DNA from: Allochromatium tepidum
Lineage (GTDB): Bacteria; Pseudomonadota; Gammaproteobacteria; Chromatiales; Chromatiaceae
DNA length: 64,000 bases
Reading direction: 5' to 3'
Assembly (NCBI RefSeq): GCF_018409545.1
Contig: NZ_AP024563.1
Location: forward strand, 1,194,755 to 1,258,754
The notes beneath the pieces are model-generated. The model saw only the letters and a list, made by a program, of their open reading frames with translations, made no database searches and was not told the origin of the DNA. The stretch's first letter is position 1; each line of letters starts with the position of its first letter. Made by a program: the position numbers and the translations under genes. Positions 7,778-58,328 of this stretch are shown one piece after another.

Positions 7778-7799
7778 GACGGTTTCTCTTTGCTGGGGG

Positions 7800-8622: not shown

Positions 8623-8683
8623 AAGATCCTAAGGCAAAAGCGAGGCCAAACCCAATGACGCCGCGTGCGCGGCCCCCGAAAGA

Positions 8684-9088: not shown

Positions 9089-9189
9089 TGCCGCCACGCC
9101 TCAAGGTCAGTCAAGGTCAGCGCGGCGCGCTGGGCCTCTCGGATGGCCTGACCCAGACGCGGCGCCGGTTCGACCCCGATGATAGCGAG

Positions 9190-9342: not shown

Positions 9343-9347
9343 GGCGT

Positions 9348-9749: not shown

Positions 9750-9764
9750 GGTTCGATTCCTGAG

Positions 9765-10175: not shown

Positions 10176-10312
10176 GGACCTCGGTGGAGTGGTGGTGTCG
10201 GGGGACTCGGCGCGGGTCTGGCCGCTAACGCCGGCCAGGGTCGGCGCGACCAAGGTTCCGGTGAGCAGCCGGACGACGAAGGGGCGTTTTTGAGCATCGG
10301 CGTTGTCTCTCG

Positions 10313-11772: not shown

Positions 11773-11783
11773 GAAAGCGCCCG

Positions 11784-13162: not shown

Positions 13163-13271
13163 GTACTGGGATCCTGGTGTCGTGTCAATGAAAGAGGCCA
13201 GATGCCCCGACATACAGGAAGACGCAGGCGACGGCAAAAGGATGCACCTCCTCGCCATCACCGTCAGTCGG

Positions 13272-13671: not shown

Positions 13672-13688
13672 CCTCGGGTGTCCTCTTT

Positions 13689-29188: not shown

Positions 29189-29690
29189 GTCGCGCGGCCG
29201 GGGGCGCTCGCCGTGGCGACAGTGGCGGCTGATGGTCGCGGTCGCCGCGCTCGTCCATGTGATCGTCGGCACGGCAGGTGAGGACCGTGGGCCGCCCACG
29301 CCGACCCTGAACCCCGAGACGCTGTCGAGCCGGCTCGTCCGGGACGAACCGCCGCTGGTGCTCGACACCCGTGGCCGCGCGGCCTACCTCACAGGCACCA
29401 TCCCCGGCGCGCTGGACGCCGGAACCGACCCTGCCGGCTATCTGCCCGACAGCCGTGGCGGAAACGCGGTGCTGATCGTCGAACCCGGCACCGACCCGGC
29501 GCCCTGGATGAACCGGCTCCTGGGCTTCGGTTATCGAGTCGAGGTACTGGCCGGCGGTTTGCCTGCCTGGCGCGCCGCCGGCCTGCCGGTCGTGAATCCA
29601 CAGGCCGGCTTCGCCATACCCGGCAGCCGCCCCTTCGTCATCCCACGCGGACTGTGCGAGATGAACACCCCGGCCGATCGCTTCCATTGA
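29175..29690 (+). CDS. Membrane-anchored or exported rhodanese-fold protein lacking the catalytic Cys
   Basis: The 171-residue protein has a basic N-terminus and one hydrophobic segment (LMVAVAALVHVIVGTAG), suggesting export. PPLVLDTRGRAAYLTGTIPGA and VEVLAGGLPAWRAAGLPVVN are rhodanese hallmarks. Where the catalytic CxxGxR loop should be, it reads VEPGTDPAPWM, so there is no active Cys. It could bind sulfur anions or act structurally. The start overlaps the preceding gene. Confidence 0.8.
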   Translation: MQPSESRGRGRSPWRQWRLMVAVAALVHVIVGTAGEDRGPPTPTLNPETLSSRLVRDEPPLVLDTRGRAAYLTGTIPGALDAGTDPAGYLPDSRGGNAVLIVEPGTDPAPWMNRLLGFGYRVEVLAGGLPAWRAAGLPVVNPQAGFAIPGSRPFVIPRGLCEMNTPADRFH

Positions 29691-29698
29691 ACATCAGA

Positions 29699-30604
29699 AT
29701 GCTCGTGAATCCCCTGGTCGATGGAATCGAGCCGCTTCAGCCGATCCTATGGCTGCTGGCCGTCTTGTCTCCTGGCGTGACCGCTTCAGACGTGACGGAT
29801 CGCGAGTCGCGCCCCTGCGCCGACTGTCACGCGGCGATCGTGCAGACCTTCGCCGTGACCCGGATGGCGCAGGGAGCGGAGGGCGAGGTCTTCCGCCGGG
29901 AATGGATGGAGCAAGGCACGCCTGAGGGCTGTCTCGTCTGCCACGCGCCCTCCGGCGGCGCCGGCCTGAGCTGCAACGACTGTCATGGCCGGGCAGGGCA
30001 CCCTTATCCCCGGCTCCAGGTACCCGACATCTGCGCCCGCTGTCATGATGCTCCCGGCGAGAGTACCGTTCGCCGCTTTCGCGAGCACCCAGCCGCGCTT
30101 CAGGGGAAGGATTGTCTGGATTGCCACCTGCCGCCGGGTGGAGCCAAGGCTGGGCATGGCTTTATCGGCCCTTCGGTCGCCGGCTTCCTGGACGACGTTG
30201 CCCGGCTGAGGCTGTCGCTCCGCCATACCCCGAATGACGGCGCCCTCGTCCTGATCCGGGTCAGCCACCGCGCCGGCCATGCCCTGCCGGGTGGAACCAC
30301 GGGGCGCGCGGTTTGGCTGACGGTCAGCGGGCTGGATGCCGAGGGCATCACCGTCTGGCGCGAAACGGTGCGCTACGGCTGGGAGCGGCACGGCGAGAAC
30401 GAATGGCAAGACCGCACCCTGCCCCCCGGCCCGCCGACGTCGGTCGAGATCGCGCTTTCCACCCACAGGACGATGACCCGTCTGCGCGCCGAACTCTGGT
30501 ACCGCTTCAGAGCCGGAGACCTGGACACGCCGGATCCGCGCGCCCGGCTGCTGGATGCGGTCGAGCTGGATCTGCCGTCCCCGGCTCCGGCGGATCGGCG
30601 ATAA
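29699..30604 (+). CDS. Pentaheme periplasmic cytochrome c
   Basis: The 301-residue protein starts at ATG 29699 with an export signal (LQPILWLLAVLSPGVTA). Five heme motifs are clustered in the N-terminal half: CADCH, CLVCH, CNDCH, CARCH and CLDCH. The C-terminal half (TPNDGALVLIRVSHRAGHAL, RAVWLTVSGLDAEG) looks like a beta-sandwich. The pattern resembles cytochrome c554-like multiheme proteins that shuttle electrons to or from a periplasmic enzyme. It is the likely outer electron partner of the molybdoenzyme. Confidence 0.9.
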   Translation: MLVNPLVDGIEPLQPILWLLAVLSPGVTASDVTDRESRPCADCHAAIVQTFAVTRMAQGAEGEVFRREWMEQGTPEGCLVCHAPSGGAGLSCNDCHGRAGHPYPRLQVPDICARCHDAPGESTVRRFREHPAALQGKDCLDCHLPPGGAKAGHGFIGPSVAGFLDDVARLRLSLRHTPNDGALVLIRVSHRAGHALPGGTTGRAVWLTVSGLDAEGITVWRETVRYGWERHGENEWQDRTLPPGPPTSVEIALSTHRTMTRLRAELWYRFRAGDLDTPDPRARLLDAVELDLPSPAPADRR

Positions 30605-30653
30605 TCCATTGCCACGCGCCTTCATGGATCCGCCACCGAATCGACAACCCTTG

Positions 30654-31505
30654 ATGACACTGAATCGCCGCCGTTTCATCCGCCACCTGGTCGCCACGAC
30701 GCTCGGCGCGGCCTGGCCCGTGTTGGGGGCTTCGCCGGTACGCTTTGGCGTCACCGCCGTGATGCTCGATGATCGCGTCGGCTTTCTCAACGATTGGGCG
30801 GCCTGGCTGGGTGTAAGGCTCGGGCGGCCGGTGGTCTTCGTGCAGCGCGCACGCTATCGCGAGATCCTCGATCTACTGCTGGGCGGTCAGCTCGATCTGG
30901 CCTGGATCTGCGGCTATCCCTATGTTCGGCATCAGGACGCGCTGGAACTGATCGCGGTGCCGTCCTTCCAGGGGCAGCCGCTCTACCGCGCCTATGTCAT
31001 CGCCGCCGCCGAGGGCGGCGTCCAATCCTTCGAGGAACTCGCGGGCCGACTCTTCGCCTGGGCCGATCCCGACTCCAACTCTGGCTATCTCTACCCGAGG
31101 TCGTATCTGGCCGGCCTCGGGCGCGATCCGGATCACTTCTTTCGACGAACGTTTTTCACCTGGGGACACCCGCGCAGCGTGGTCGCGGTCGCCGAGGGGT
31201 TGGCCGACGGCGCGGCGGTCGATGGCTATGTCTGGGAGACCCTGGCGCGTCGCGATCCGGCGCTGACCGGGCAGACGCGGATCATCCTGCGCTCGCCCCT
31301 GTTCGGTTTTCCGCCGATCGTGGCCGCGCGTGACCTGCCGGCGGCGGATCGCACCCGGTTGCGCGAAATCCTGATCGGGCAGGCGGGAGACGCCGCCGGC
31401 CGCGCGCTGCTGGCGGAACTCAACCTCGACGGCTTCGTCACCGCCAAGCCGGCCCTGTTCGCGGATATCGCGGTGATGGCACGCCAATTGGGGCGAAGCG
31501 GGTGA
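30654..31505 (+). CDS. PhnD-like periplasmic binding protein, sensor component
   Basis: The roughly 283-residue protein begins MTLNRRRFIRHLVATTLGAA, a Tat-like signal (RRRFIR); an upstream ATG at 30624 is also possible. VRFGVTAVMLDDRVGFLNDW, LAWICGYPYVRHQDALELIA and FAWADPDSNSGYLYPR are hallmarks of PhnD-type binding proteins. No transporter genes adjoin it. It is directly followed, with 4-base overlap, by a histidine kinase and an activator. By analogy with the PhnD-like domain of TtrS, and as I recall ArxX, it probably presents an oxyanion to the kinase. Confidence 0.85.
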   Translation: MTLNRRRFIRHLVATTLGAAWPVLGASPVRFGVTAVMLDDRVGFLNDWAAWLGVRLGRPVVFVQRARYREILDLLLGGQLDLAWICGYPYVRHQDALELIAVPSFQGQPLYRAYVIAAAEGGVQSFEELAGRLFAWADPDSNSGYLYPRSYLAGLGRDPDHFFRRTFFTWGHPRSVVAVAEGLADGAAVDGYVWETLARRDPALTGQTRIILRSPLFGFPPIVAARDLPAADRTRLREILIGQAGDAAGRALLAELNLDGFVTAKPALFADIAVMARQLGRSG

Positions 31506-32941
31506 ACATAAGCCGCTTTTGGGCGAGCTATCGCGTCCGCCTGCCGCTGAGTCTGAGCGTCTCGGCGATCCTGACCGCGTTCTGTCTGGCGCTCGCACTC
31601 GGCGGACAGACCCTGGTCAATCTGCGCGAGGATCAGGGGCGCAACGCATCAATGTTGGCCCATGCCTGGGCCGAGATGCTGATCCAGGCGCTGCGCAACG
31701 AGGATGTCTGGCTGGCCTATGCGCTGCTGCGCGGTCCCGAAGGCGCTGAAGCCGGGGAAGCCGTATGGATCCTGGTCGATGCCGCCGGGCGCGTCTTCGC
31801 CAGCAACCGGCCGCGTCGCTATCGGCTCGATCAGCCGGTAAACGAGGCGCTGCCCTGGCTGCCGGCGACCGTTGAGCCGGATCGCATCGAACCGCTTGCA
31901 CGGGCGAACGGGGTCGATCAGGCCGAGGCCCAGCGTCTGCTGCGCCTGCCGCTGTTCAGCGACGGCACACTGGTCGGCGAACTGATCGCCCTGCTGTCCG
32001 ATACGCCCTATCTGCCGCGCTTTCGCGAGATCCTGGTCGGCGGCGTGCTGGTGACGGTCGGCGTGCTCGCCCTGCTGGTGCCGCTCGGCTGGCTGTGGGG
32101 ACGGCGCCTGGTGGCACCCCTGACCCGGCTCAGCGGCTGCATGAGCCGGGTCGGCAAGGAAGATCCGCGTCGGCTGTACTGCACACTGCCCGGCGATGAC
32201 AGTGAGATCGGTCAGCTTGGACGCCAGTTCGCCGCCATGGTTGCGGCCCTGGCCGAACAGGAGGCGCTGAAGGATCAGATGCTCCAGTCCGAGCGGCTGG
32301 CCGCAGTCGGGCGGGTTGCCGCCGGAGTCGCACATGAGGTGAACAACCCACTCGGCGGTATGCTGATGGCGATCGACGCCTATCGTTGCGCCCAACCTCC
32401 GGACGCGCGCACGGCCCGCCTGCTCGATCTGCTGGAGCGCGCACTGCGTCAGATCCAGGACTCGGTCTCGGCGCTGCTGGTCGAGGCGCGCGCCGATCCG
32501 CGTCCGCTGACGGCGCGCGATCTGGACGATGTGCGCACCCTGGCCCAACCGCGATTGGCCAAGTCCGGCGTGCGGCTGATCTGGCACAATGCCTTCGATG
32601 TGGCGACCACACTACCGGCGGCGCCGGTGCGCCAGTTACTGCTGAACCTGTTGCTCAACGCCATCGAGGCCGCACGCGACGGCGGGGCGGTGCGGGTGCG
32701 GCTGCTGAGCGAGGGCGACCGCCTGCGGCTGTGGGTGCGCAATCGCGGCCGGCCGATCCCGCCCGATCAGCTCGCCCATCTGTTCGAACCCTATCCGGCG
32801 GTTCGACCCCATGCGCGCGGACTGGGGCTATGGATCTGCTATCAGATCGTCTCCCAGCTCGGCGGCGTCATCGAAGTTGATTCCGAGGGCGAATTGACGA
32901 CCTTCCGGGTCAGTCTGCCGCTGGGTCGACCGGTTGCATAA
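31502..32941 (+). CDS. Membrane histidine kinase of the molybdoenzyme operon
   Basis: The 479-residue kinase has TM1 (about residues 17-36), a periplasmic domain of about 130 residues and TM2 (ILVGGVLVTVGVLALLVPLG). A HAMP-like segment leads into HisKA with the phospho-acceptor motif AAGVAHEVNNPLGGML and an ATP-binding domain (LLLNAIEAARDGGA, RGLGLWICYQIV). It belongs to the NtrB-like class that works with NtrC-type regulators. The overlap with the PhnD-like gene argues for a three-part sensor. Confidence 0.93.
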   Translation: MNISRFWASYRVRLPLSLSVSAILTAFCLALALGGQTLVNLREDQGRNASMLAHAWAEMLIQALRNEDVWLAYALLRGPEGAEAGEAVWILVDAAGRVFASNRPRRYRLDQPVNEALPWLPATVEPDRIEPLARANGVDQAEAQRLLRLPLFSDGTLVGELIALLSDTPYLPRFREILVGGVLVTVGVLALLVPLGWLWGRRLVAPLTRLSGCMSRVGKEDPRRLYCTLPGDDSEIGQLGRQFAAMVAALAEQEALKDQMLQSERLAAVGRVAAGVAHEVNNPLGGMLMAIDAYRCAQPPDARTARLLDLLERALRQIQDSVSALLVEARADPRPLTARDLDDVRTLAQPRLAKSGVRLIWHNAFDVATTLPAAPVRQLLLNLLLNAIEAARDGGAVRVRLLSEGDRLRLWVRNRGRPIPPDQLAHLFEPYPAVRPHARGLGLWICYQIVSQLGGVIEVDSEGELTTFRVSLPLGRPVA

Positions 32942-32954
32942 GAGAGTGCGTGAT

Positions 32955-34274
32955 ATGACACGGGTCTGTCTGATCGAGGACGATGCCATCATGGGTGAGG
33001 CGTTGGTGGAGCGTCTGACCCTGGAGGGATTCGAGGTGGACTGGCAGTGCACGGGGCGCGCCGGTCTGGCGGCGCTGCGCCAGACCGAGGCGGCGTTGGC
33101 GGTCATCGACGTGAATCTGCCCGACCTGTCCGGGATCGCCCTGTTCGAGCGGCTGATCGAGTCGCGTATCGCGCGGCCGCCCACGCTCTTCATCACCGGC
33201 TACGGCACCATCGAGGACGCGGTGCGTCTGCTCAAGCTCGGCGCGGCCGACTATCTGACCAAGCCGCTCGATCCGGGCGCGCTCATCGACAAGCTGCGTG
33301 CGCTCGCCGCCACGAGTGCGCCTTGCCGCGACGCGCGCCGGGAGGCCGGTGAGAACGAACGCCTGGGGATTTCGCCTTCGATGTGCCGCCTCGAATCCGA
33401 ACTCGACCGTCTGGCGCGCCATCCGCAGACGCCGGTTCTCATCAGCGGCGAATCGGGCGTGGGCAAGGAGGTCGTGGCCCGCGCCCTGCATCGGCGTCAG
33501 TGTCCGCAGGCGCCCTTCGTCGCGGTCAACTGTGCCGCGCTGCCCGAGACCCTGATCGAGGCCGAACTCTTCGGCCACGAGCGCGGGGCCTTCACCGGGG
33601 CCGAGCGCCGTCGTCCCGGTGTCTTCGAGCAGGCCGGCGATGGGGTGCTCTTTCTCGATGAGATCGGCGACATGCCGCTGGCCTTGCAATCGCGTCTGCT
33701 GCGGGTGGTGCAGTCGCGCCAACTGACCCGCATCGGCGGCGTCGAGCCGGTCGCGGTCGCCGCGCGTCTGGTGTGCGCCACCCATCGCGATCTGGCCGCC
33801 CTGGTGCGCGCCGGGCACTTTCGCGAGGATCTCTACTACCGGGTACGGGTGCTGGAGATCGCGATCCCGCCGCTGCGCGAGCGGCCCGAGGACATCCTGT
33901 GGCTGGCCGAACGCTTCCTGGCCGAGCATGGCGCACGCTTCCCGGATGAGCGCCGCCGGCTCGGGGCGGCGGATCGTCAGTGGTTGCTGAATCAATCCTG
34001 GCCGGGCAATGTGCGCGAGTTGCAGCATACCCTGGAGCGCGCCTGCATCCTCGGGCAGGGCGAGCGATTGCGCTTGGAATCTTCCGACGCCACACCCGCC
34101 GAGACCGGTCTCAGACAGCAGACCGAAGCCGGCGAACGGGCCGCGATCCTGGCCGCGCTCGTCGAACAGGACTACCACATGACCCAGACCGCCGCCCGGC
34201 TCGGCATCAGCCGCAAGACGCTGTGGCAGAAGATGAAACGGTATGGGCTGTCACGACATGATGATGTAGGTTGA
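32955..34274 (+). CDS. NtrC-type sigma-54-dependent response regulator
   Basis: The 439-residue protein has a receiver domain (VIDVNLPDLSG, phosphorylated Asp; TKPLDPGAL), an AAA+ domain with Walker A GESGVGKEVVARAL, the sigma-54 contact motif GAFTGAERRRPG, and Walker B LFLDEIGDMP. The C-terminal Fis-type helix-turn-helix is MTQTAARLGISRKTLWQKMK. It therefore activates sigma-54 promoters. The start at 32955 (MTRVCLIEDDAIMGE) follows GAGAG. The likely target is the promoter near 17590 with its two upstream palindromes. Confidence 0.95.
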   Translation: MTRVCLIEDDAIMGEALVERLTLEGFEVDWQCTGRAGLAALRQTEAALAVIDVNLPDLSGIALFERLIESRIARPPTLFITGYGTIEDAVRLLKLGAADYLTKPLDPGALIDKLRALAATSAPCRDARREAGENERLGISPSMCRLESELDRLARHPQTPVLISGESGVGKEVVARALHRRQCPQAPFVAVNCAALPETLIEAELFGHERGAFTGAERRRPGVFEQAGDGVLFLDEIGDMPLALQSRLLRVVQSRQLTRIGGVEPVAVAARLVCATHRDLAALVRAGHFREDLYYRVRVLEIAIPPLRERPEDILWLAERFLAEHGARFPDERRRLGAADRQWLLNQSWPGNVRELQHTLERACILGQGERLRLESSDATPAETGLRQQTEAGERAAILAALVEQDYHMTQTAARLGISRKTLWQKMKRYGLSRHDDVG

Positions 34275-35752: not shown

Positions 35753-36298
35753 CTAGGCTAAAGCCTGACGCATGGCGATCAAGCCGGCGTACCAGGCCGG
35801 ATAGTCCCAGGGAAATCGCCCCGGATGCCGATCCTGGATCGGGTCCATGAGGCATCGCAGGGTCAATCCGGCGAGTCCGAGGATCACATGGACGCCGACC
35901 GCGAGGATGGAGCCGCCGGTCTGTCCCAGGTTCGGCCAGGACTCGCGTAGGCCCGCCAGGATCAGCGGCGCGCTCTCATGCGCCAGCCCGAAGGCGGCCG
36001 CCGCCGTGAGTCCGCCGAGCAAGTGGGACTCCAGCGCCCGGCGGTCGAGTTGGCGGCGCAGGATCGGCAGCAACACCAGGATCCAGAGGCTGAGATAGGC
36101 CGACTCGGGACCGGCCAGCGGCGAGGTTTCATGGCCCTGGAGCGCCCGTGCCACCGTCCGCCAGAGATCCGAGACGAGCAGGGTCGTCAGGGTCAGACCC
36201 AAGGCCAACCGGCGTACCCAAGGCCCGGTACACGGGGGACACCAACCGGCCGCCCCGATCAACAGTATCCAGCCACAGAGCACGATCGCCGTGCTCAT
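35753..36298 (-). CDS. Integral membrane protein of unknown function (envelope operon)
   Basis: The 181-residue protein has about four to five hydrophobic segments (for example IVLCGWILLIGAAGWCPPC and ILAVGVHVILGLAGLTL). A tandem-Cys motif WCPPC is near the N-terminus, reminiscent of but not equal to thioredoxin CxxC. It overlaps the preceding gene by 4 bases and is the last gene of a nine-gene operon. No family is recognised. Confidence 0.75.
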   Translation of the reverse strand: MSTAIVLCGWILLIGAAGWCPPCTGPWVRRLALGLTLTTLLVSDLWRTVARALQGHETSPLAGPESAYLSLWILVLLPILRRQLDRRALESHLLGGLTAAAAFGLAHESAPLILAGLRESWPNLGQTGGSILAVGVHVILGLAGLTLRCLMDPIQDRHPGRFPWDYPAWYAGLIAMRQALA

Positions 36299-37368
36299 GG
36301 TCGTTGCTCCGGCATCGCGGGGCGCTCCGAGGGGCTCGTGCCTGCAATCGTGTCTGGCCGATTCGACCGGGCGCCGGGGGGCGATGCCGAGTCACTGGTG
36401 GTCGAAGCGACCAAATCCCTGATCCGCGCCAGGATCAGGCGCTCGCAAGCCTCCGGCAGCCGTCCACGCAACGGATCGGCGTGCTCCAGCGTGATCCGCG
36501 CGCGCTCCACATCGCCCGACCAGTGATAGCCCAGACCCGCGACCAGGGCGAGGGCGACATTGGTCGGCGCGCCCTGGACCGCGAAACGGTCGGCGAGATC
36601 GCGAAACTGCGTCTGATCCTCGGCCAGGGCGGGTAGGGCGCCGAGATCCTGGATCAAGCGCCGTGTGCGATCGAGACAGACGGCCCCGCGCTGACGCGGC
36701 TCCGCGAGCCGGCGCGCCAGCACTTCGAGCCGCAGTCGGCGGGCGTCCCAGAATCCGGGGTCATCCGCGACGGCGGCATTCAACGCCGTCTCGGCCTCGT
36801 CGAGCCGATCCTGCTCCCAGGCGCTGTCGGCCAGGACGAACCAAGCGTCGGAGTGTAGCCGTTCGGGCAGATCCGGCACCTCCAGGGCCGCGCGCGCCGC
36901 GACCTGCGCCGACTCGAAGTCATGCCGGCGCCGCTGGAGGCGTGCCAGTTCGAGGTGAGCGCGGAAGCGGATCAACGGCTCTTCAGTCTGCGTCAAGGGT
37001 TCGATCAAAGCCAGCTTGCGCGCGGGATCGCCACTGAGCGCGGCGAGCTGAAAGGCCAGACGCGCCTCGTCGTCGATCCGACCCCAGAGATTGCGATAGC
37101 GCATGAAGACCGTGTCGCCCGCCGCGCGGCGCGAGGAGTCGCTCGTCGTGGGACTCAGGGCCGCGACGCCACGCTCGGCGAGGTCCGACCAGAGTGTTTC
37201 CCACGCCTCGACGGCCTGACGCGCCTCGGCCGAATCACCCAGTCCGCCCGTCTCGGCGGATCGATCCGGAGCGCGCGCCAGTCCCCAGAGCACGCCGCTC
37301 AATACCATCAACAGCCCCAGCGTGGTCAGGCGCGGCATGAGCTGTGAGTCAGGGCGTCGCGGGAGCAT
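36295..37368 (-). CDS. Membrane-anchored helical-repeat (TPR-like) protein
   Basis: The 357-residue protein starts at ATG 37368, four bases after the upstream stop, with an N-terminal hydrophobic signal or anchor (LGLLMVLSGVLWGLARAP). Repeated helical stretches such as RFRAHLELARLQRRRHDFES and DSAWEQDRLDEAETALNAAV follow, resembling TPR or Sel1-type arrays. These would form a periplasmic scaffold. It belongs to the ExbB/ExbD-TerD operon. Confidence 0.7.
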   Translation of the reverse strand: MLPRRPDSQLMPRLTTLGLLMVLSGVLWGLARAPDRSAETGGLGDSAEARQAVEAWETLWSDLAERGVAALSPTTSDSSRRAAGDTVFMRYRNLWGRIDDEARLAFQLAALSGDPARKLALIEPLTQTEEPLIRFRAHLELARLQRRRHDFESAQVAARAALEVPDLPERLHSDAWFVLADSAWEQDRLDEAETALNAAVADDPGFWDARRLRLEVLARRLAEPRQRGAVCLDRTRRLIQDLGALPALAEDQTQFRDLADRFAVQGAPTNVALALVAGLGYHWSGDVERARITLEHADPLRGRLPEACERLILARIRDLVASTTSDSASPPGARSNRPDTIAGTSPSERPAMPEQRP

Positions 37369-37372
37369 CGGG

Positions 37373-38011
37373 CTACCAATAGAGGCCATAATGCGTGAAC
37401 TGGGCGACATGACGGCCGATCAGCACGGGTTCGTCCGGCCGCTGGGTGAACCAGCGAAACCGCTGACCTGTGGCCTGTAGCCGTTCGTAGAGCGGCACAA
37501 AGGTCTCCAGGCCGTCGGGATGGACGATGAAGACGGGCGCGATCCGATCGCGTGCCGCGTCCTGGGCCAGTTCATCGACCAGTCGCTCGGTCTGCTCGGC
37601 GCTCCAGGGCGGCGACCGGCTCAGGATCGCCTCGCGATCGAGCCGGAACTCCAACTGAAAGGTATCGATGTCGCGCGTCACCAGCGGCTCGGGCCGCCAG
37701 ACGAAACGCCCCTGCCAGGTGGCGCCCGAGCGCGTGTCGGGCGCGGCGGCGAGCACGTCGACCACGGCTTCCTGATCCCAGACCGCCACCCGATCGGCGA
37801 GCACGAAATAGAAGCGCGAGAAGGGCGGAAAGCGTTCGCGCTGCGGCTCGACGAAGCGCGGCCCGGCGCTCGGACGGGCCGGGATCTGGCTGGCCCCTTC
37901 GGTGAACTGACGCGGCGCGGCCAGGGCGAAGAGCGTCACGATCAGCAGGATCGCCAGCAGATTGGTGGCGATGTCGAGAAAGGCGCTCGGGGTCGGTCCG
38001 TCAGTCTCCAT
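37373..38011 (-). CDS. ExbD-like protein with one N-terminal membrane segment (copy 1)
   Basis: The 212-residue protein has one membrane helix (LDIATNLLAILLIVTLFALA) preceded by a short cytosolic stretch with Asp, the layout of ExbD/TolR-type proteins. The periplasmic part (about 170 residues) is longer than in ExbD and lacks a recognised peptidoglycan domain. It overlaps the other ExbD-like gene by 11 bases. It probably pairs with the MotA/ExbB protein at 38477-39283. Confidence 0.65.
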   Translation of the reverse strand: METDGPTPSAFLDIATNLLAILLIVTLFALAAPRQFTEGASQIPARPSAGPRFVEPQRERFPPFSRFYFVLADRVAVWDQEAVVDVLAAAPDTRSGATWQGRFVWRPEPLVTRDIDTFQLEFRLDREAILSRSPPWSAEQTERLVDELAQDAARDRIAPVFIVHPDGLETFVPLYERLQATGQRFRWFTQRPDEPVLIGRHVAQFTHYGLYW

Positions 38012-38477
38012 GTCCGCGCCACTCGGTCAGCAGACGGGGTAGAGTCTCGGGCACCGTCGACAGCGGACGGAAGCTCAGCCGGAACGCCCGGCGCGTTTCG
38101 GCGCGCGGATCGAGCCGGCTGGTGAAGCGGCTGAAGGCGTCCTCGAAGGCGCGACGGGTGCCGAAACAGTCCCGGGTGAGCGCGAAGACCAGATTGCGAA
38201 CGCCGTCACCCTGAGCCGCGAGTCGTGCCAGCAGCGCATCGAGTTCGGTCTCGCGATAGACGATCGGCTCGGCCTCGGGTCCGGCATAGAGTGTCACCAC
38301 GCCATCGGCCTGGCAGACGATCAGATCGTCGATCGCCGGCGGACGCCCGGTCTCGGGCCGGTTGCGGGCTTGCAAGGCGAAGACGACGATCAGGATGCCG
38401 ACGAAGGCCAGCACCAGATCGAGAAAGGGCAGCAGATTCGGCTCCGGCATCAGCGGTATCGATGGACGGTGACGCAT
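38001..38477 (-). CDS. ExbD-like protein with one N-terminal membrane segment (copy 2)
   Basis: The 158-residue protein has PEPNLLPFLDLVLAFVGILI at the N-terminus. An acidic residue (Asp) in the first turn of the single membrane helix fits the proton-path residue of ExbD/TolR. The remainder is periplasmic (DDLIVCQADGVVTLYAG). It is placed directly after the MotA/ExbB-like gene, with one base overlap. Confidence 0.7.
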   Translation of the reverse strand: MRHRPSIPLMPEPNLLPFLDLVLAFVGILIVVFALQARNRPETGRPPAIDDLIVCQADGVVTLYAGPEAEPIVYRETELDALLARLAAQGDGVRNLVFALTRDCFGTRRAFEDAFSRFTSRLDPRAETRRAFRLSFRPLSTVPETLPRLLTEWRGHGD

Positions 38478-39283
38478 CAGTCGGCCGCGTCCGGGTCCGC
38501 AGAGGTGTCCGGGAACAGCCGGTCGAGCAGCCGCCGGTAATAGAGCATGTCGAGCGTCTGTGCCCGCGCGCGCAACACCAGCAGGGCCAGCATCAGCGGG
38601 ATCACCAGCACCAGCCCGACGAAGGTGGTGTCGAAGGCGAACTGGAGTCCGCCGAGCACCCCACCGAGTCCACCCCCATCGACGGCCGTGACCGCGACGC
38701 TGTCGGCCAGTCCGCCGATGGCCTGGGTGATGCCGAGCACGGTGCCGATGAAGCCGAGCATGGGCAGCACCCAGATGGCGAAACCGATGGGGGCGAAGTT
38801 GTGCTGATGCTGCCGGCCGCGCACCAGGAGCACATAGTCGCTCAGATGGACCGAGTCCTCGCGGGCGTGGGTCCGGTCGTGCCAGCGTCGCAGCGCGACC
38901 GGAACCCGCGCGGCGTCGGCCTGTTCGCGTCCGGAGAGAAAGTCGATCCAGTCCTGGAGACGAGAGCGGACGGACTGGCGACCGTCCTGGTCCGGCGTAT
39001 CTCGCCCGATCAAGGCGCGGCGTTCGCTCTGGAGCCCCAGATATTGCAGGACGGCATAGAGTGCGCCGGCGACGAACAACGCCAGCATGAAACGGCAGTA
39101 GCCATTGCCCAGATAGCGCCCGATCCAGTCGGGCAGGGCGTCCGGCTCCAGAAAATGCATCAGGGTCGGATAGAGCGCCAGTGTGATGAGCAGGGCGACG
39201 ATCAGCGGCCGGGCGATCTGTCGCTCGGAGAACAGCCCGGCGGCCTGATCGAGATCGAGCGATGGCTGAGCGGGTGGAGACAT
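38477..39283 (-). CDS. MotA/TolQ/ExbB-type proton channel protein
   Basis: The 268-residue protein has two N-terminal membrane segments and the diagnostic family helix pair: GFAIWVLPMLGFIGTVLGIT and AFDTTFVGLVLVIPLMLALL. It has the GTxxG pattern of stator proteins. ExbB/MotA proteins conduct protons and turn a partner (ExbD or MotB). Both ExbD-like genes follow it, so this cluster probably makes a proton-driven complex. It starts one base before the end of the upstream coiled-coil gene. Confidence 0.88.
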   Translation of the reverse strand: MSPPAQPSLDLDQAAGLFSERQIARPLIVALLITLALYPTLMHFLEPDALPDWIGRYLGNGYCRFMLALFVAGALYAVLQYLGLQSERRALIGRDTPDQDGRQSVRSRLQDWIDFLSGREQADAARVPVALRRWHDRTHAREDSVHLSDYVLLVRGRQHQHNFAPIGFAIWVLPMLGFIGTVLGITQAIGGLADSVAVTAVDGGGLGGVLGGLQFAFDTTFVGLVLVIPLMLALLVLRARAQTLDMLYYRRLLDRLFPDTSADPDAAD

Positions 39284-39709
39284 CTATCGATCCGGTTGGG
39301 GCGCGGCAGAGTCATCCAGGGTCTGTTCAAGCACCTGGAGTTGATGCGCGATGTCGCGTCGCGTGGTCCGCAGTTCCGCGATCCGGGCGCCGATCTCGCC
39401 GTAGAGGCGTTCCTGGCGCGCGCGTTCGTCGTGGTTCTGAGCGGCGTCGGCGCGGTCGAGCGCCTGCTGGGCCTGGGCGATGAGTTGGGTCTCCAAGTCA
39501 TCGAGCCGGGTCAGCAGACGCTGGATGTCGTCGAGCCGGGCCTGGAGCGCCGCGCGGTCCGAGCCGATGTCGATGGCCGGCGGCGTTGTCGACGCCGAGG
39601 CCGCCGGCTCAGGCGGCGCGGCTCCTGAGTCGGCGGCCAACATCAGGCCCAGGCAGGACAGCAGGAGCCGGAACCGCGCGTGCGGACCGGTAATGCCGGT
39701 CGGCTTCAT
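39284..39709 (-). CDS. Secreted short coiled-coil protein
   Basis: The 141-residue protein has an N-terminal signal peptide (RLLLSCLGLMLAADSGAA) followed by a mainly coiled-coil domain (LDDIQRLLTRLDDLETQLIA, LRTTRRDIAHQLQVLEQTLD). It overlaps the next coiled-coil gene by 4 bases. No family is recognised. Its place next to the stator gene suggests a periplasmic partner. Confidence 0.7.
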   Translation of the reverse strand: MKPTGITGPHARFRLLLSCLGLMLAADSGAAPPEPAASASTTPPAIDIGSDRAALQARLDDIQRLLTRLDDLETQLIAQAQQALDRADAAQNHDERARQERLYGEIGARIAELRTTRRDIAHQLQVLEQTLDDSAAPQPDR

Positions 39710-40329
39710 GGCGCGATCGGCACCTGCTGCGCATCGTTGGCGGTCTTGACGATGGCCTGCATGTTCTCGTTGAGGCTCGTCAGATTGGCGCCGACCTTCT
39801 GGAGACTCTCGATCGCCTTGTCGGCCTGACCCAGCTCATAGTAAGCCAGCACGATGTCGCGGTCGGACTCGATGGCACGCATCAGCGCCAGCGAATTGGC
39901 GCGCTCGGTGCTGATCTGGTTGCGCAGTTCGCGCCCCTTGTCGAGCCGGCTCTGCCAGGCCTGCGCGATCGGCAGGAAGGCCGGATTGGATTCGGACTTG
40001 GTCAGCGTCTCCTGACGGCGCTGCTCCCAGAGTTCGAGCAGGGCGTCGAGTTCGGTCCAGATCTCGCTGTTCTCGTCCATGCTCGCGTTGACGCGCTTGA
40101 CCGATTCGAGCATGGCGTCGAGCACCTCGCCGCCCTTCTCGATGGAGTCACGGCTGGCCTGGATGTCGGCCTCCAGCCCGCTCAGATTCTCCTGGAGCTG
40201 GGCGGCCACGGCGTTGACCTTGTTGAACAGCCGGCCCATGTCGGGCTGATCGGCCGTTTGGGCGAGACCGGCGGTGCTACCGAGCGTCAGGAGTCCGGCG
40301 AGCAGCAGGGCGGATGTCTTCTTCATCAT
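39706..40329 (-). CDS. Secreted coiled-coil protein, paralogue of the next gene
   Basis: The 207-residue protein starts MMKKTSALLLAGLLTLGSTA with a signal peptide. Its body is helical and rich in Glu, Gln and Lys (NAVAAQLQENLSGLEADIQA). The C-terminus (NDAQQVPIAP) parallels that of the 232-residue neighbour (SLQASVPIAN), suggesting a duplication. No known family is recognised. Confidence 0.7.
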   Translation of the reverse strand: MMKKTSALLLAGLLTLGSTAGLAQTADQPDMGRLFNKVNAVAAQLQENLSGLEADIQASRDSIEKGGEVLDAMLESVKRVNASMDENSEIWTELDALLELWEQRRQETLTKSESNPAFLPIAQAWQSRLDKGRELRNQISTERANSLALMRAIESDRDIVLAYYELGQADKAIESLQKVGANLTSLNENMQAIVKTANDAQQVPIAP

Positions 40330-40341
40330 GGGCAGTTCCTC

Positions 40342-41040
40342 TCAATTGGCGATGGGGACCGAGGCTTGCAGACTCTGCTGGGTCTTCTGTTCGACGACCG
40401 TCATGGCCTGGGTGATGTCGTTCAGGCCCTCGACCACCGAACGCGCGGCGGCGATGGCCTCCAGCACCTTGCCGATCTTCATCTCCTGGAGGATCACCCG
40501 GTGCTGGCGCATGATGGTCGAGAGCTTCTCCTGAGCCAGGGTGCGGCTCTGGTTCAGACGCTCGTCGACGATGTCGTATTCCTGGATGGCGCGCTCGAGC
40601 TGAGCGATGCTCTGCTCACGGTTGGGATAGTCGGGCGGCTGGCGCTCGAACCAGCTCTTGAGCACGATGGTGCCCTCCTTGGCGCGGTTGAGCGCATCGG
40701 CGAAGTCGCTGTTGAGATCGAGCTTGTTGAGCACCCCATAGACCTCGTCGCGCAGGGTGAAGAACAGGCTGTCGACCTGAGCCTCCTTCTCCTGCTCCGA
40801 GGTCAGGCGCGCGACCTCTTCGAGCTTTTCCATCGCCGTCTGGATGCGCGCGCCGAGCTGGGCGCTGGAGGCGCGGATGTTGGACATCTCGGCTTCGAGG
40901 ATGACGGTCGGATTGCTGCGGTTGGGGTTGCGGGCGCTGTACTGGCCCTCCTGCGCCCAGAGCGGTGCGCTCAGAAGCAGGGCGCACAGCAGCAGCCCGG
41001 GCCGGAGTCGAAGGCGCGTTGGAATGGAACGATCGGGCAT
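40342..41040 (-). CDS. Secreted coiled-coil protein
   Basis: The 232-residue protein has a signal peptide (GLLLCALLLSAPLWAQ) and long helical segments (SSAQLGARIQTAMEKLEEVA, VDERLNQSRTLAQEKLSTIM). It begins 13 bases upstream of its paralogue and 46 bases after the TerD-domain gene. Its function is unknown. It would face the periplasm, near the TerD protein's outer domain. Confidence 0.7.
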   Translation of the reverse strand: MPDRSIPTRLRLRPGLLLCALLLSAPLWAQEGQYSARNPNRSNPTVILEAEMSNIRASSAQLGARIQTAMEKLEEVARLTSEQEKEAQVDSLFFTLRDEVYGVLNKLDLNSDFADALNRAKEGTIVLKSWFERQPPDYPNREQSIAQLERAIQEYDIVDERLNQSRTLAQEKLSTIMRQHRVILQEMKIGKVLEAIAAARSVVEGLNDITQAMTVVEQKTQQSLQASVPIAN

Positions 41041-41086
41041 CTGGAGTCCTCGTGGTTGGTCGTCGGTCTCGCGGCGTCGGCGAGGC

Positions 41087-42394
41087 TCAGTGGCCGCAGG
41101 CTTCGATGTTCTCCTGGAAGCCGTCGAGCAGACGCGCGGTCTTGTTGCGCAGATAGGCCAGGTCGCGCGCGATGTCGGTCAGATCCGATTCGAGATTGCG
41201 CGCGCGGTCGGCCTCACGCACCAGGCGTTGGAGGATGATGGGTCTGGACTCCTGGTTCAACTCCTTGTCGAGACGCTTGATCAGGAGTCCGGCGCAGTTG
41301 TTGAGCTTGATCGACTCATCCATCCAGGCGGCGATCGGTAGCTGGCCCAGTTGCTCGGCCTCCTGGCGATTGCCGTCGATGAAGGGCGCGGCGCACCCCG
41401 AGGTCATTTGACGCAGTTCGTTGCGCCACTTGCCCAGGAGCTTGTTGCTGCGCTCGACCCGCTGCAGGATGCGGACATAGTTGTCGCCGAGCGCGTGATA
41501 ACGCTCGAAGACCTGAGCATCCTCCCAGGGGCAGGTCGGCGCCTGATAGAGGGTCGGGAGGCGGCGCCAGGCCGTTACGCCGTCGTCGCGCTCGGCCGTC
41601 GCGGGCGGTGGCTGAGGGGGATCGAGCGTGGCGCCCGTGCTCGGATCGGGGCTGAAACGCTCGCGTGCCTCGGCCCAGAGTTCGGCCGGTCGTTCGAGCC
41701 AGTCGGGCGCGAACATCCGGATCGCGCCGGTCGCGGTGGCGAGCAGGATCAGCAGAGCCAGACTCCAGGCCAGCCGGCCGGGGCGCGCGCGTCGCCGGTG
41801 TCGTTCGGACGCTGGCGACGGAGCGGATTCGAGCGGAATCGGCATCGGTGGTGCCGGATCGCTCGGTGGCGTCCCGGCTGACGCCTCCTCGGCGACAGCC
41901 ACGCCGAAATGCTCGGCCAGCGGCTGGAGTCCGCCGCGAAAGCCCTGGCCGACGGCACGCAGCTTCCAGCCGGCGCCGTGGCGATAGAGTTCGGCGAAGA
42001 TGAGTGCCTGCTCGTCTCCGGCCTCGGTCAGTTCGAAGGCGAGCGGCTCACCCGTGGCAGGCGTGGCCGTGAGCCGGGCGCCGATCAGGTCGCGAAACGC
42101 GCCGTGCGACAGGGCGGCGGCGATGACGAGACGATCGACAGCGGCCGGAAGACGTTCCGGTTGCACCCGAATCTCGGCGCGACCGGCGGCGGGCGTCGAC
42201 AGCACCACGACCCCGCCGGGCGCCTGGAGCTGGTTGTAGAACACGAACCAGTCGTCGCTCGGAATCCGCCCATCGGCACCGACGGCGAAGCACACGACAT
42301 CCAAGGTATCCCGGCCCGGCGGCCGGCGCAGTTCGATGTGCACTGTGCCTGCACTCGACAGCGGCGCGTTCGCGCCCTTCGGCAGTGTCTTCAT
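41087..42394 (-). CDS. TerD-domain protein with a membrane anchor and periplasmic helical domain
   Basis: The 435-residue protein has an N-terminal TerD-type domain of about 185 residues: LPKGANAPLS, TLDVVCFAVGADGRIPSDDW, FVFYNQLQAPGGVVVL, ALIFAELYRHGAGWKLRAVG. Then come a Pro-rich stretch, one membrane helix (LAWSLALLILLATATGAIRM) and a periplasmic helical region. TerD proteins bind calcium and belong to tellurite/Ter stress systems and are normally soluble. A membrane-spanning version at the head of an ExbB/ExbD operon is unusual. The start is set at 42394 (MKTLPKG). Confidence 0.85.
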   Translation of the reverse strand: MKTLPKGANAPLSSAGTVHIELRRPPGRDTLDVVCFAVGADGRIPSDDWFVFYNQLQAPGGVVVLSTPAAGRAEIRVQPERLPAAVDRLVIAAALSHGAFRDLIGARLTATPATGEPLAFELTEAGDEQALIFAELYRHGAGWKLRAVGQGFRGGLQPLAEHFGVAVAEEASAGTPPSDPAPPMPIPLESAPSPASERHRRRARPGRLAWSLALLILLATATGAIRMFAPDWLERPAELWAEARERFSPDPSTGATLDPPQPPPATAERDDGVTAWRRLPTLYQAPTCPWEDAQVFERYHALGDNYVRILQRVERSNKLLGKWRNELRQMTSGCAAPFIDGNRQEAEQLGQLPIAAWMDESIKLNNCAGLLIKRLDKELNQESRPIILQRLVREADRARNLESDLTDIARDLAYLRNKTARLLDGFQENIEACGH

Positions 42395-54269: not shown

Positions 54270-57200
54270 GTGGACCCAACCTTCGTACATCTGCATCTGC
54301 ATTCCGAGTATTCGCTGGTCGATGGCCTGGTGCGCATCAAGCCGCTGGTCAAGGCGGTCGCGGCGGCCGGGATGCCGGCGGTCGCCGTCACCGATCAGGG
54401 CAACCTGTTCTCGCTGGTGCGCTTCTACAAGGCGGCCGTGGGCGCCGGGGTCAAGCCGATCGCGGGGGCGGATCTCTGGGTGCGGAATCCGGAGGACGCC
54501 AATCAGCCGCATCGTCTGGTGCTGCTGGCTCAGGACGAGCCGGGCTATCGCAATCTGACGCGGCTGATCTCGCGCGGCTTCGTCGAGGGCCAGCATCTGG
54601 GGGTGGCGCAGGTCGAGCGTGATTGGGTGCTGGAGGCGCATCAGGGGTTGATCGCGCTCTCGGGCGGGCCGCGCGGCGACGTGGCCGAGGCGCTGCTCAA
54701 GGGCCGACCTGAGATTGCGGGTCAGCGGCTCGATGTCTGGCTGTCGGTGTTCGGGGATCGCTATTACCTGGAGCTGATGCGCACCGGACGTCCCCAGGAG
54801 GGCGAGCTGGTCGAGGCGAGCGTAGATCTGGCGATCCGGCGCGGCGTGCCTGTGGTCGCGACCAATGACGTGCGGTTCCTGGCGGCCGGCGACTTCGAGG
54901 CCCATGAGGTGCGCGTCTGCATCCATCAGGGCCGCACGCTCGACGACCCGCGCCGTCCGCGCGACTACAGCGAGGAGCAGTATCTGCGCACCCCGGCGGA
55001 GATGGCCGAACTCTTCGCCGATCTGCCCGAGGCGCTGGAGAACACGGTCGAGATCGCCAAGCGCTGCAACCTGGAACTCAAGCTCGGCAAGAACTATCTG
55101 CCGGTGTTCCCGGTGCCCGAGGGCATGACCACCGACAGCTTCTTCGCCGAGCAGTCGCGCCGGGGGTTGGAATGGCGGTTGGAGCGGATTCTCGACCGTG
55201 ACGCGCCGGATTATGTCGAGCGGCGCCGGGTCTACGAGGAGCGGCTGGAAACCGAACTCGCGGTCATCATCCAGATGGGCTTCCCCGGCTATTTCCTGAT
55301 CGTGGCCGACTTCATCCAGTGGGCCAAGGACAACGGCATCCCGGTCGGGCCGGGGCGCGGCTCGGGTGCCGGCTCGCTGGTCGCCTATGCGCTCAAGATC
55401 ACGGATCTCGACCCGATCCAGCATGAGCTGCTGTTCGAGCGTTTTCTGAACCCCGAGCGCGTGTCCATGCCCGACTTCGATATCGACTTCTGCATGGAAG
55501 GGCGCGATCGGGTCATCGACTATGTGGCGCGCAAATACGGGCGCGAGGCGGTGTCGCAGATCATCACCTTCGGCACCATGGCGGCCAAGGCGGTGGTGCG
55601 CGATGTCGGGCGCGTCATGGGGCATCCGTACGGCTTCGTCGACAAGATCGCCAAGATGGTGCCCTTCGAGTTGGGGATGACGCTCGATAAGGCGCTCAAG
55701 GAGAGCGAGGATCTCAAACGCGCCTATGACCAGGACGAGGAGGTGCGGGCCATCCTCGACATGGCGCGCAAGCTGGAGGGGCTGACCCGCAATGCGGGCA
55801 AGCACGCTGGCGGCGTGGTGATCGCGCCGACGGTGCTGACCGATTTCGCGCCGCTCTATTGCGAACCGGGCGGGGTGAATCTGGTCACGCAGTTCGACAA
55901 GGACGACGTGGAGCAGGTCGGTCTGGTCAAGTTCGACTTCCTGGGGCTGCGTACCCTGACCATCATCGACTGGGCGCTCAAGACCATCAATGCCGGGCGT
56001 GCGGCCAAGGGCGAGCCGCCGCTCGACATCGAGCGCATCGATCCGCGCGACCGGGAGGCGTTCGATCTGCTCAAGCGTTGCGAGACGACGGCGGTGTTCC
56101 AGCTCGAATCGCGCGGCATGAAGGAGCTGATCAAGAAGCTCCAGCCCGATTGCTTCGACGAGATCACGGCACTGGTGGCGCTGTTCCGGCCAGGGCCGCT
56201 GCAATCGGGCATGGTCGACGACTTCATCGAGCGCAAGCATGGACGCGCCGAGGTCGCCTATCCGCATCCGGATCTGGAGCCGATCCTCAAGCCCACCTAC
56301 GGCATCATTCTGTATCAGGAGCAGGTGATGCAGATTGCGCAGGTGTTGGCGGGGTATTCGCTCGGTGGGGCGGACATTCTGCGTCGCTGTCTGGCCGGCT
56401 CGACCGAAGTGGTCGATGCCGCGACCGGACGGCGGGTGACGCTGACCGAGATCGCCGCCGCGCCCGAGGTTTGGATCGGACGCGAGGTGTTCGCGCTCGA
56501 CCTGAAGACCCAGAAGATCGTGCGCCGGCCGATCGACGCCGTCTATCACAATGGCGTGCAGGAGGTATTCGAGGTCACGACCCGCACCGGACGCCGGATT
56601 CAGGCGACGGCGACGCATCTGTTCTATACGCTCGTGGGCTGGAAGCCGCTGGGGGCCTTTGTCGAGGGCGAGACGATCGGACTGGCGGCACGGTTGCCGC
56701 TGGAGAGCGATGAACCTCAGTCAAGGATTGGCGTCGAGTCGGATGTCTTGTGGGATTTAATCGAGTCGATCCGCCCGCTAGGTGATATGGAGGTCTTCGA
56801 TCTCACTATTCCCAAGCATCACAACTTCATCGCCAACGATTTTATTGCCCACAATTGCATGGGCAAGAAGAAGCCCGAGGAGATGGCCAAGCAGCGCGAA
56901 ACCTTTGAGCAGGGTGCGCTAGCACGAGGAATTGATGGTCAGCTCGCCTCGCATGTATTTGATTTAATGGAATATTTTTCTGGTTATGGATTTAATAGGA
57001 GTCACAGTGCCGCCTACGCCCTGGTCAGTTACCAAACCCTCTGGCTCAAGGCCCACTATCCGGCCGCCTTCATGGCCGCCGTGCTCTCGGCGGACATGGA
57101 CAACACCGACAAGGTCGTCACCCTGATCGACGAATGCCGGACGATGAAGCTCAGGGTCGAGCCGCCGGCGATCAATCGCTCCGACTATCACTTCACCATC

Positions 57201-58328
57201 GCCGACGACAAGACCGTCGTCTATGGTCTGGGCGCGGTCAAGGGCGTGGGTGAGTCGGCGATCGAGGCCATGCTGGAGGCGCGTCGTGCCGGCGGTCCTT
57301 TCCGCGATCTCTGGGACTTCTGCGGACGTATCGACCTGCAGCGGGTCAACCGCCGTGTGCTGGAGTCGCTGATCCGCGCCGGTGCGCTCGACGAACTCGG
57401 CCCCAACCGCGCTACGCTCATGGCCCAGCTGCCGCCGGCGCTCAAGGCCGCCGAGCAGTATCACAGCACCCGCGCGGCCGGTCAGGTCGATCTGTTCGGC
57501 GCGCTCGCACCCAGCGGGCCGCCCACACCGGACCCGCAACTCGCCCGCGAGACACTCGCCGACTGGGAGGACGAACAGCGTCTCCAGGGCGAAAAGGAGA
57601 CGCTCGGACTCTATCTCACCGGACATCCGATCGATCGCTACGAGGACGAACTCAAGGCGATGGGTGGGGCGCGTATCGCCCGCTTGCTGGAGACCGACCG
57701 CGAACTCGGACGCCGCGACCGACGCGACCGCGAAAAACGCACCGTCGTCGGGTTGGTGGTCGGCGTGCGGCATGGCAAGACTCAGCGCGGACGCATGGGC
57801 TCGGTGGTGCTCGACGACCGCACCGGGCGCATCGAGGCCACGGTCTTCTCCGAGCTCTATGAACAGGTGCGTCATCTGCTGGTCGCCGACCGGATCCTGA
57901 GCATCACCGGTGCGCTCAACTTCGATGAGTTCCGCGACGCCTGGTCATTGCGCGCCGACAGTGTGCGGATCTTCGAAGAGGCACGCGCGACTGCCGCCGA
58001 TCATCTGCTCCTGACGCTGGATCTGTCCGATCCGGTCGCCCATGCGCGCGGACTGGAGCGGGTCGAGGAACTGCGCGCGGTGCTGCTCGCCCATCGCGAT
58101 ACGGCGCGCGAGTCCAGTCTGCCGATCCGGTTGATCTACCGTCGTCCCGGTGCGGTCGGTGAACTGATGCTGGGGAGTGCCTGGCGCGTTCGTCCCGCCG
58201 ATGCCCTGCTCAAGCAGTTGCGCCACTTGTTGGGCACCGAGAGCGTCCGTGTGTCCTATGAGCGCCCGGTCCAGCAGGCGCCCATGCCCGAGTTGCAGTC
58301 AGCGCCGCGATTGCGGGCGGTGTCCTGA
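54270..58328 (+). CDS. dnaE: DNA polymerase III alpha subunit with an in-frame mini-intein
   Basis: The 1352-residue frame is a full DnaE: the PHP domain (FVHLHLHSEYSLVDGLVRIK), the catalytic core (PDFDIDFCMEGRDRVIDYVA, GPGRGSGAGSLVAYAL), LRTLTIIDWALKTIN and a C-terminal OB region. At residues 707-862 a mini-intein interrupts ADILRR and CMGKKKPEEM, where the uninterrupted protein normally reads LRRAMGKKKPEEM. After removal the alpha subunit is about 1196 residues, close to the usual length. It is the replicative polymerase and must be spliced to work. It starts at ATG 54283 or GTG 54270. Confidence 0.96.
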   Translation: MDPTFVHLHLHSEYSLVDGLVRIKPLVKAVAAAGMPAVAVTDQGNLFSLVRFYKAAVGAGVKPIAGADLWVRNPEDANQPHRLVLLAQDEPGYRNLTRLISRGFVEGQHLGVAQVERDWVLEAHQGLIALSGGPRGDVAEALLKGRPEIAGQRLDVWLSVFGDRYYLELMRTGRPQEGELVEASVDLAIRRGVPVVATNDVRFLAAGDFEAHEVRVCIHQGRTLDDPRRPRDYSEEQYLRTPAEMAELFADLPEALENTVEIAKRCNLELKLGKNYLPVFPVPEGMTTDSFFAEQSRRGLEWRLERILDRDAPDYVERRRVYEERLETELAVIIQMGFPGYFLIVADFIQWAKDNGIPVGPGRGSGAGSLVAYALKITDLDPIQHELLFERFLNPERVSMPDFDIDFCMEGRDRVIDYVARKYGREAVSQIITFGTMAAKAVVRDVGRVMGHPYGFVDKIAKMVPFELGMTLDKALKESEDLKRAYDQDEEVRAILDMARKLEGLTRNAGKHAGGVVIAPTVLTDFAPLYCEPGGVNLVTQFDKDDVEQVGLVKFDFLGLRTLTIIDWALKTINAGRAAKGEPPLDIERIDPRDREAFDLLKRCETTAVFQLESRGMKELIKKLQPDCFDEITALVALFRPGPLQSGMVDDFIERKHGRAEVAYPHPDLEPILKPTYGIILYQEQVMQIAQVLAGYSLGGADILRRCLAGSTEVVDAATGRRVTLTEIAAAPEVWIGREVFALDLKTQKIVRRPIDAVYHNGVQEVFEVTTRTGRRIQATATHLFYTLVGWKPLGAFVEGETIGLAARLPLESDEPQSRIGVESDVLWDLIESIRPLGDMEVFDLTIPKHHNFIANDFIAHNCMGKKKPEEMAKQRETFEQGALARGIDGQLASHVFDLMEYFSGYGFNRSHSAAYALVSYQTLWLKAHYPAAFMAAVLSADMDNTDKVVTLIDECRTMKLRVEPPAINRSDYHFTIADDKTVVYGLGAVKGVGESAIEAMLEARRAGGPFRDLWDFCGRIDLQRVNRRVLESLIRAGALDELGPNRATLMAQLPPALKAAEQYHSTRAAGQVDLFGALAPSGPPTPDPQLARETLADWEDEQRLQGEKETLGLYLTGHPIDRYEDELKAMGGARIARLLETDRELGRRDRRDREKRTVVGLVVGVRHGKTQRGRMGSVVLDDRTGRIEATVFSELYEQVRHLLVADRILSITGALNFDEFRDAWSLRADSVRIFEEARATAADHLLLTLDLSDPVAHARGLERVEELRAVLLAHRDTARESSLPIRLIYRRPGAVGELMLGSAWRVRPADALLKQLRHLLGTESVRVSYERPVQQAPMPELQSAPRLRAVS
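56388..56855 (+). other. Mini-intein in dnaE (156 residues, no homing endonuclease)
   Basis: The insert starts CLAGSTEVVDAATG (block A, Cys1) and contains ATATHLFYT (block B, TxxH). It ends HNFIANDFIAHN (block G, terminal His-Asn), followed by Cys as the first extein residue. There is no LAGLIDADG or HNH domain. These ends meet the requirements for self-splicing. The insertion site differs from the cyanobacterial split DnaE intein site, which lies before FNRSH further downstream. Position 56388 is Cys707 of the frame. Confidence 0.93.

Follow-up and report, generated by a model that had tools for sequence, protein, structure and literature searches.

A nine-gene envelope operon of Chromatiaceae with a membrane-anchored TerD protein and a candidate proton-driven motor

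The stretch of DNA analysed here, 64,000 nucleotides of contig NZ_AP024563.1 of Allochromatium tepidum (hereafter the window), comes from a 3.38 Mb genome of the family Chromatiaceae, genus Allochromatium, and carries a run of nine genes, A to I, conserved in purple sulfur bacteria, in which a TerD-domain protein is combined with relatives of ion-driven motor proteins. A first-pass annotation of the sequence had described a tight minus-strand run comprising a membrane-anchored TerD protein, one MotA/TolQ/ExbB-type channel protein, two ExbD-like proteins, three secreted coiled-coil proteins, a repeat protein and a membrane protein, and had proposed a proton-driven envelope system. The run itself was confirmed: nine contiguous open reading frames (ORFs) occupy positions 42394-35753 of the minus strand in a single tight series, each where the annotation had placed it, with gaps of 46 bp between A and B and 12 bp between B and C, the other neighbours abutting or overlapping. 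A search for promoters and terminators gave no signal exceeding chance. Scans with NCBIfam and PADLOC yielded no real assignment for the operon genes, and the Pfam scan returned no match for F, G and I and sub-threshold matches only for B, C and D. The genes are the following.

Gene A, 41087..42394, minus strand: 435 aa, Pfam TerD domain, one transmembrane (TM) segment, invariant cysteines
Gene B, 40342..41040, minus strand: 232 aa, secreted and, from the alignment, probably helical
Gene C, 39706..40329, minus strand: 207 aa, secreted; probably helical; may be a distant paralogue of B
Gene D, 39284..39709, minus strand: 141 aa, secreted; coiled coil probable; lowest conservation in the set
Gene E, 38477..39283, minus strand: 268 aa, MotA/TolQ/ExbB-type channel protein (Pfam MotA_ExbB)
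Gene F, 38001..38477, minus strand: 158 aa, remote ExbD/TolR relative (hhalign)
Gene G, 37373..38011, minus strand: 212 aa, N-terminal TM helix and alpha/beta periplasmic domain, ExbD-like by layout only
Gene H, 36295..37410, minus strand: up to 371 aa, TPR protein (Pfam TPR_16), membrane-anchored or secreted
Gene I, 35753..36298, minus strand: 181 aa, polytopic membrane protein, judged from its hydrophobic segments

The TerD domain of A occupies residues 3-163 (about 42388-41906) and matches the Pfam family PF02342 at 1.1e-28, with 100.4 bits against a gathering score of 25.3. It is followed by a Pro-rich linker, a single TM segment (residues 211-229, about 41764-41708) and a C-terminal part (about 41548-41090) predicted to form a periplasmic helical domain, in which C288, C334, C367 and C433 are invariant. 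Since an Arg-rich stretch immediately precedes the TM segment, TerD is predicted to lie in the cytoplasm and the C-terminal domain in the periplasm. The membrane-anchored TerD of the first-pass annotation is thereby correct, and A is predicted to be a bitopic protein with a topology like that of TonB/TolA/GltG-type transducers, although no FHA or TonB domain was matched in Pfam. The annotation had also noted that no TonB or OmpA partner is present, which holds by sequence but has to be qualified by this topology.

Three genes form the presumptive motor. E matches the Pfam family MotA_ExbB (PF01618) at 7.4e-10, has four or five hydrophobic segments and continues for about 31-40 residues after the last of them. 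Its nearest PDB entries are TolQ structures (6e-4), with an alignment that spans the last two channel helices. The threonines that TolQ has in GTVWG and ATAIG correspond to T181 (38743-38741) and T220 (38626-38624) of E, neither of which varies among ten sequences, and the channel protein of the first-pass annotation stands. The claim of two ExbD-like proteins held for F alone. F carries the motif NLLPFLD in its TM helix, with an invariant D20 (38420-38418), and has no PF02472 match at the Pfam threshold; compared by hhalign with an ExbD/TolR profile, for which E. coli ExbD and TolR had been combined with 31 related sequences, it reached a probability of 93.8%, an E-value of 1.7e-7 and a score of 48.7, with D20 aligned. 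Twenty column shuffles scored 8.6-16.3, and A, B, C and E reached at most 14.3 against the same profile. The AlphaFold model of F (pLDDT 81.7) consists of a TM helix and an alpha/beta domain, whose order of elements resembles ExbD/TolR by eye only, no formal test having been applied. G likewise has one N-terminal TM helix, with an invariant D13 (37975-37973), and is modelled as a TM helix plus an alpha/beta domain (pLDDT 76.4); its hhalign score against the ExbD/TolR profile was 20.6 versus a shuffle maximum of 18.7 (E 0.019), and Foldseek placed a TolR structure at rank 29 only (E 1.5). Without a significant match in sequence or structure, G is called ExbD-like in layout only. Other fold identities considered for F and G (NTPDase, RNase H-like and ribosomal S11-like proteins were the top matches) were uninformative at E >0.001, and paralogy between F and G was unsupported by profile comparison. 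A different MotA/ExbB-type operon was seen in another genome (L032, G127:C325, 1892-11614), with a 592-aa E-like protein that has a long C-terminal part, two small single-TM proteins and a HEAT-repeat-like protein, and with a gene for a kinase-type protein alongside.

The first-pass annotation had suggested a Zorya-like defence role, in which the proton motor would sense penetration of the envelope and signal through TerD. ZorAB do belong to the same motor superfamily, and Ter systems have been connected in the literature with inhibition of phages. The operon differs from Zorya, however, in lacking the long cytoplasmic tail of ZorA, absent from E, as well as the peptidoglycan-binding, OmpA-like domain of ZorB and the effectors ZorC, ZorD and ZorE, none of which had a Pfam or PADLOC match in F, G or the neighbouring genes. 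The ZorA score given by PADLOC is weak (0.013) and common to the MotA family, which amounts to generic MotA similarity. No defence island was found among the neighbours tested, and no copies of the operon in phages, plasmids or viral contigs, homologues of B included. Membership of Zorya or of another defence system was accordingly rejected as a candidate, and an anti-phage function of this type is highly improbable.

The remaining genes encode predicted envelope proteins. B, C and D each start with a signal-like segment and have no further TM segment, in keeping with the secretion that the annotation had claimed for them; the coiled-coil part of that claim depends on sub-threshold matches. 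Conservation within the set is highest for B, with a mean pairwise identity of 72% versus 52-57% for A, E and F (52% for A). A profile comparison of B with C, made to see whether they are paralogues, gave a weak match (E about 0.002), and a distant paralogy of the two is possible. H, the annotated repeat protein, matches Pfam TPR_16 at 2.9e-11 and has a hydrophobic segment at residues 27-45; its true start is probably downstream of the annotated ORF start. I is a membrane protein, as annotated, with several hydrophobic segments and no match to a known family, and its position is conserved in the loci read; L018 has an insert ahead of it, and L035 and L064 carry additional small genes.

Gene order A to I is identical in all 11 of the other TerD-type loci that were scanned with full flanks. 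These come from Chromatiaceae genera and one metagenome-assembled genome (MAG) of Competibacteraceae, and comprise L034, L035 and nine named loci: Allochromatium palmeri, A. humboldtianum, Thiocystis violacea, T. minor, an uncultured Thiocystis, Thiorhodococcus mannitoliphagus, Thiobaca trueperi, Rhabdochromatium marinum and the Competibacteraceae MAG. E is 94% identical in A. humboldtianum and 90% in A. palmeri; in the family sample, nine genomes besides that of the window have close relatives of E (>=52% identity over most of E), and a tenth, G075, has a divergent match (58% over a short stretch). Profile searches found the TerD-type operon in 14/210 genomes of the order. Wider searches, with the C profile in 369 gammaproteobacterial genomes and the E profile in 398 genomes across the phylum, recovered the own genome only; they covered few genomes per family and scored few candidates per genome, and because the samples are this thin, absence beyond the order is not proven.

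The genes could in principle be functionally unrelated and adjacent by chance, and inserts between members would fit such a view: in L021 a gamma-glutamyltranspeptidase gene separates F from G, in Thiobaca trueperi (L018, 12718-17184) H and I are separated by lysyl-phosphatidylglycerol synthase-like and VirJ-like genes, and DUF305 genes are inserted in L035 and L064. Against it, flanking genes vary between genera while the order within the operon stays, the ORFs overlap, and a divergent type without TerD has the same order. That nine genes stay in one order from genus to genus far exceeds chance expectation, and chance synteny, which the first-pass annotation had named as a way in which its reading might fail, is scarcely credible.

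The type without TerD occurs in two genomes, G515 and G075. In it, a secreted protein of the A-type periplasmic domain precedes homologues of B to I, after which the operon has genes for a vWA protein, an ABC ATPase and an FtsX-type permease. Two such secreted proteins stand in tandem in G515 (L063), where they score 37 and 38 bits against the periplasmic part of A and are followed by the B-I homologues (the D and I matches being weak), an unassigned 227-aa protein, an 864-aa vWA protein, a LolD-like ABC ATPase and an FtsX-type permease. The arrangement in G075 (L031) is similar, its A' being recognised by position and four cysteines. L020 has an extra secreted copy of the A periplasmic domain (202 bits), and the Competibacteraceae MAG has both the TerD-bearing A and a secreted A'. 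TerD is thus an optional module of the operon, and since TerD-less sister operons exist, the motor core is a reusable one.

The vWA protein is not confined to these loci: it was matched in 22/274 genomes of the class and 119/210 of the order. The window genome is among them, with a match at C1:1103821, and its set (L075, G000:C1:1093500-1113000, 5256-13873) includes the vWA protein, a LolD-like ATPase, an FtsX-type permease, FGE-sulfatase-domain proteins and a Gly-zipper lipoprotein; no kinase was seen in this set. As at least four TerD-type genomes (G073, G140, G527 and G511) had no match at E 1e-20, the TerD type can do without the vWA module, and its candidacy as an obligatory partner was dropped. 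In L079 (G281, 3186-13834), SrfB and SrfC are encoded immediately upstream of a vWA-permease module, a possible link to the SrfABC operon.

The retention of the whole set without TerD also fits a housekeeping or transport machine of the Tol/Ton kind, engaged in outer-membrane upkeep or substrate uptake, with A as an analogue of TonB or TolA and TerD as a passive anchor. The proximity of E to TolQ in the PDB, the ExbD/TolR likeness of F and the TonB-like topology of A with its Pro-rich linkers point the same way. Three observations speak against it: neither a receptor gene nor a domain of TonB, TolA, TolB, Pal or OmpA is present in the operon; the window genome has PF02472-positive ExbD/TolR genes at four other places, separate from the operon; and TerD is present in 14/14 operons of the main type. 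This explanation is on balance unlikely.

The connection with the Ter system is closest in T. mannitoliphagus (L017, L067), where the operon directly follows genes for PRTase_2-TRSP, TerD, TerD, TerB, a HAD-like phosphatase, StiP-PELOTA and C-C_Bond_Lyase. Such partners of the Ter cluster are directly upstream in these loci only; in the window the operon has none of them next to it. Each of the 14 TerD-type genomes encodes four or more additional TerD proteins; G075, of the TerD-less type, has no TerD match. TerD is present in 44/210 genomes of the order, and the chance that all 15 operon genomes considered (the 14 and G515) fall among these 44 is 7e-12 when relatedness is ignored, a figure that is indicative only, as the TerD-type operons themselves contribute a TerD. 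Canonical Ter clusters (TerD, TerB, StiP, PRTase, C-C_Bond_Lyase) have the TerD domain in common with the operon and adjoin it in T. mannitoliphagus, but the TerD of the operon differs from theirs in being membrane-anchored and in lacking the acidic GDN-TG-GDDE loop, which is missing also from two other local TerD paralogues. To our knowledge, the described Ter clusters contain no motor proteins. On the second replicon of the window genome, a gene encodes a loop-less TerD domain followed by an apparent vWA domain (L039, G000:C2:64000-83000, 8739-10028).

Taken together, the operon may encode a trans-envelope complex of the TolQR/ExbBD/MotAB superfamily, driven by the proton-motive force, with TerD as its cytoplasmic module and a link to envelope stress, an interpretation that we hold with about even confidence. 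The first-pass proposal of a proton-driven envelope complex with TerD gains support from the retained channel residues, the recurrence of the genes as a unit and the adjacency to a Ter cluster in one species. In such a complex, E would form a ring channel, and F, probably paired with G, would be the Asp-bearing central subunit. The conserved residues suggest that protons would flow through the channel; the resulting motion of F and G could act on the helical B, C and D in the periplasm, on H with its TPR repeats and on the disulfide-type domain of A. A might connect the machine to the cytoplasmic TerD, by analogy with GltG and the AglRQS motor. The likely task would be to sense or repair damage to the periplasm or outer membrane and to couple it to the Ter stress system; judged from gene context alone, a role in envelope stress is probable. 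In the TerD-less relatives the cytoplasmic link would be absent, and the operon runs on into a vWA and FtsX-type ABC module in the style of TagST/PpkA.

Several findings weigh against this interpretation. Homology of G to ExbD is not demonstrable by sequence, profile or structure, and neither the F nor the G model has a significant fold match in the PDB (Foldseek). No outer-membrane or peptidoglycan-binding component was found in the operon. The TerD domain of A is without the GDN-x-TG-x-G-x-GDDE loop of canonical soluble TerDs, the A' of L031 matches A by position and cysteine count only (hmmsearch E 0.057), and many Chromatiales have TerD genes but no operon, so that the link to Ter is one-directional and may reflect shared ancestry.

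A broader proposal, which we advance tentatively, is that the operon represents an undescribed class of proton-driven envelope machines with interchangeable signalling modules: a motor and periplasmic core (the A domain and B-I) would report or repair envelope damage, relayed by TerD and the Ter system in one branch and by vWA and an FtsX-type ABC module in the other, and F and G would serve as an asymmetric axle inside the channel. The TerD-linked motor operon is apparently undescribed; in the open papers searched, among which most subscription journals and with them the main Ter survey are missing, TerD is nowhere connected to a motor of this kind, and for TerD with ExbB/TolQ or MotA they yielded one unrelated expression study only. 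The molecular role of TerD is still unclear, and a TerD domain joined through the membrane to a proton motor offers a concrete and testable link between Ter and the envelope. Should F and G make up one central unit, the 5:2 ion-driven motor would here have an asymmetric form.

Two further features of the window were observed apart from the operon. The dnaE gene (DNA polymerase III alpha, 54270-58328, plus strand) has a Pfam Intein_splicing match at residues 721-862 (6.3e-18, about 56430-56855) and probably contains an intein. At 29654-34274 of the plus strand, a multihaem-type cytochrome, a phosphonate-binding-type periplasmic protein, a histidine kinase and a sigma-54 response regulator are encoded in a row, resembling a cluster that senses an electron acceptor.

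Among known systems, Tol-Pal (TolQR) and Ton (ExbBD) have homologues of E and F, and the conservation of the Thr and Asp residues of the ion path leads one to expect periplasmic work driven by the proton-motive force here too. The operon differs from them in the absence of TolA/TonB, TolB and Pal, in the additional G, B, C, D and A, and in E, which seems MotA-like in its number of hydrophobic segments. A second comparison is with the TagQRST-PpkA pathway, through which P. aeruginosa senses damage to its outer membrane (PMC11881912) and in which PpkA has a vWA sensor domain (PMC3224232). The likeness is one of gene content: the last genes of TerD-less operons encode a vWA protein, a LolD-like ATPase and an FtsX-like permease, and the window genome has its separate vWA-ABC-permease-FGE-lipoprotein cluster of like content. 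The operon differs, however, in having no kinase or type VI secretion gene, and the vWA protein was not found in some TerD-type genomes.

AglRQS, the focal-adhesion machine of Myxococcus xanthus, comprises one TolQ-type and two ExbD-type proteins; the bitopic GltG, of FHA-TM-periplasmic layout, binds AglR, and core homologues are reported from several Gammaproteobacteria (PMC3169522). PF02472 is matched by AglQ and AglS with E-values of about 1e-15 or lower, whereas F and G have no match to it. The operon differs further in having TerD where GltG has FHA, in lacking a TonB C-terminal domain, a GltH-type porin or other outer-membrane component and a link to gliding, and in adding the secreted B, C and D, the Glt proteins being compared by layout only. 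That the operon encodes a surface-force machine of this kind, serving gliding, surface-associated movement or the placing of surface structures, is improbable in view of these differences, even with the shared layout and the gammaproteobacterial homologues in its favour, and we know of no gliding in these organisms. As an architecture, AglRQS/GltG is the nearest one described, with one MotA/TolQ/ExbB protein, two single-TM proteins in the ExbD position, TPR proteins and a bitopic protein that carries a signalling domain in the cytoplasm.

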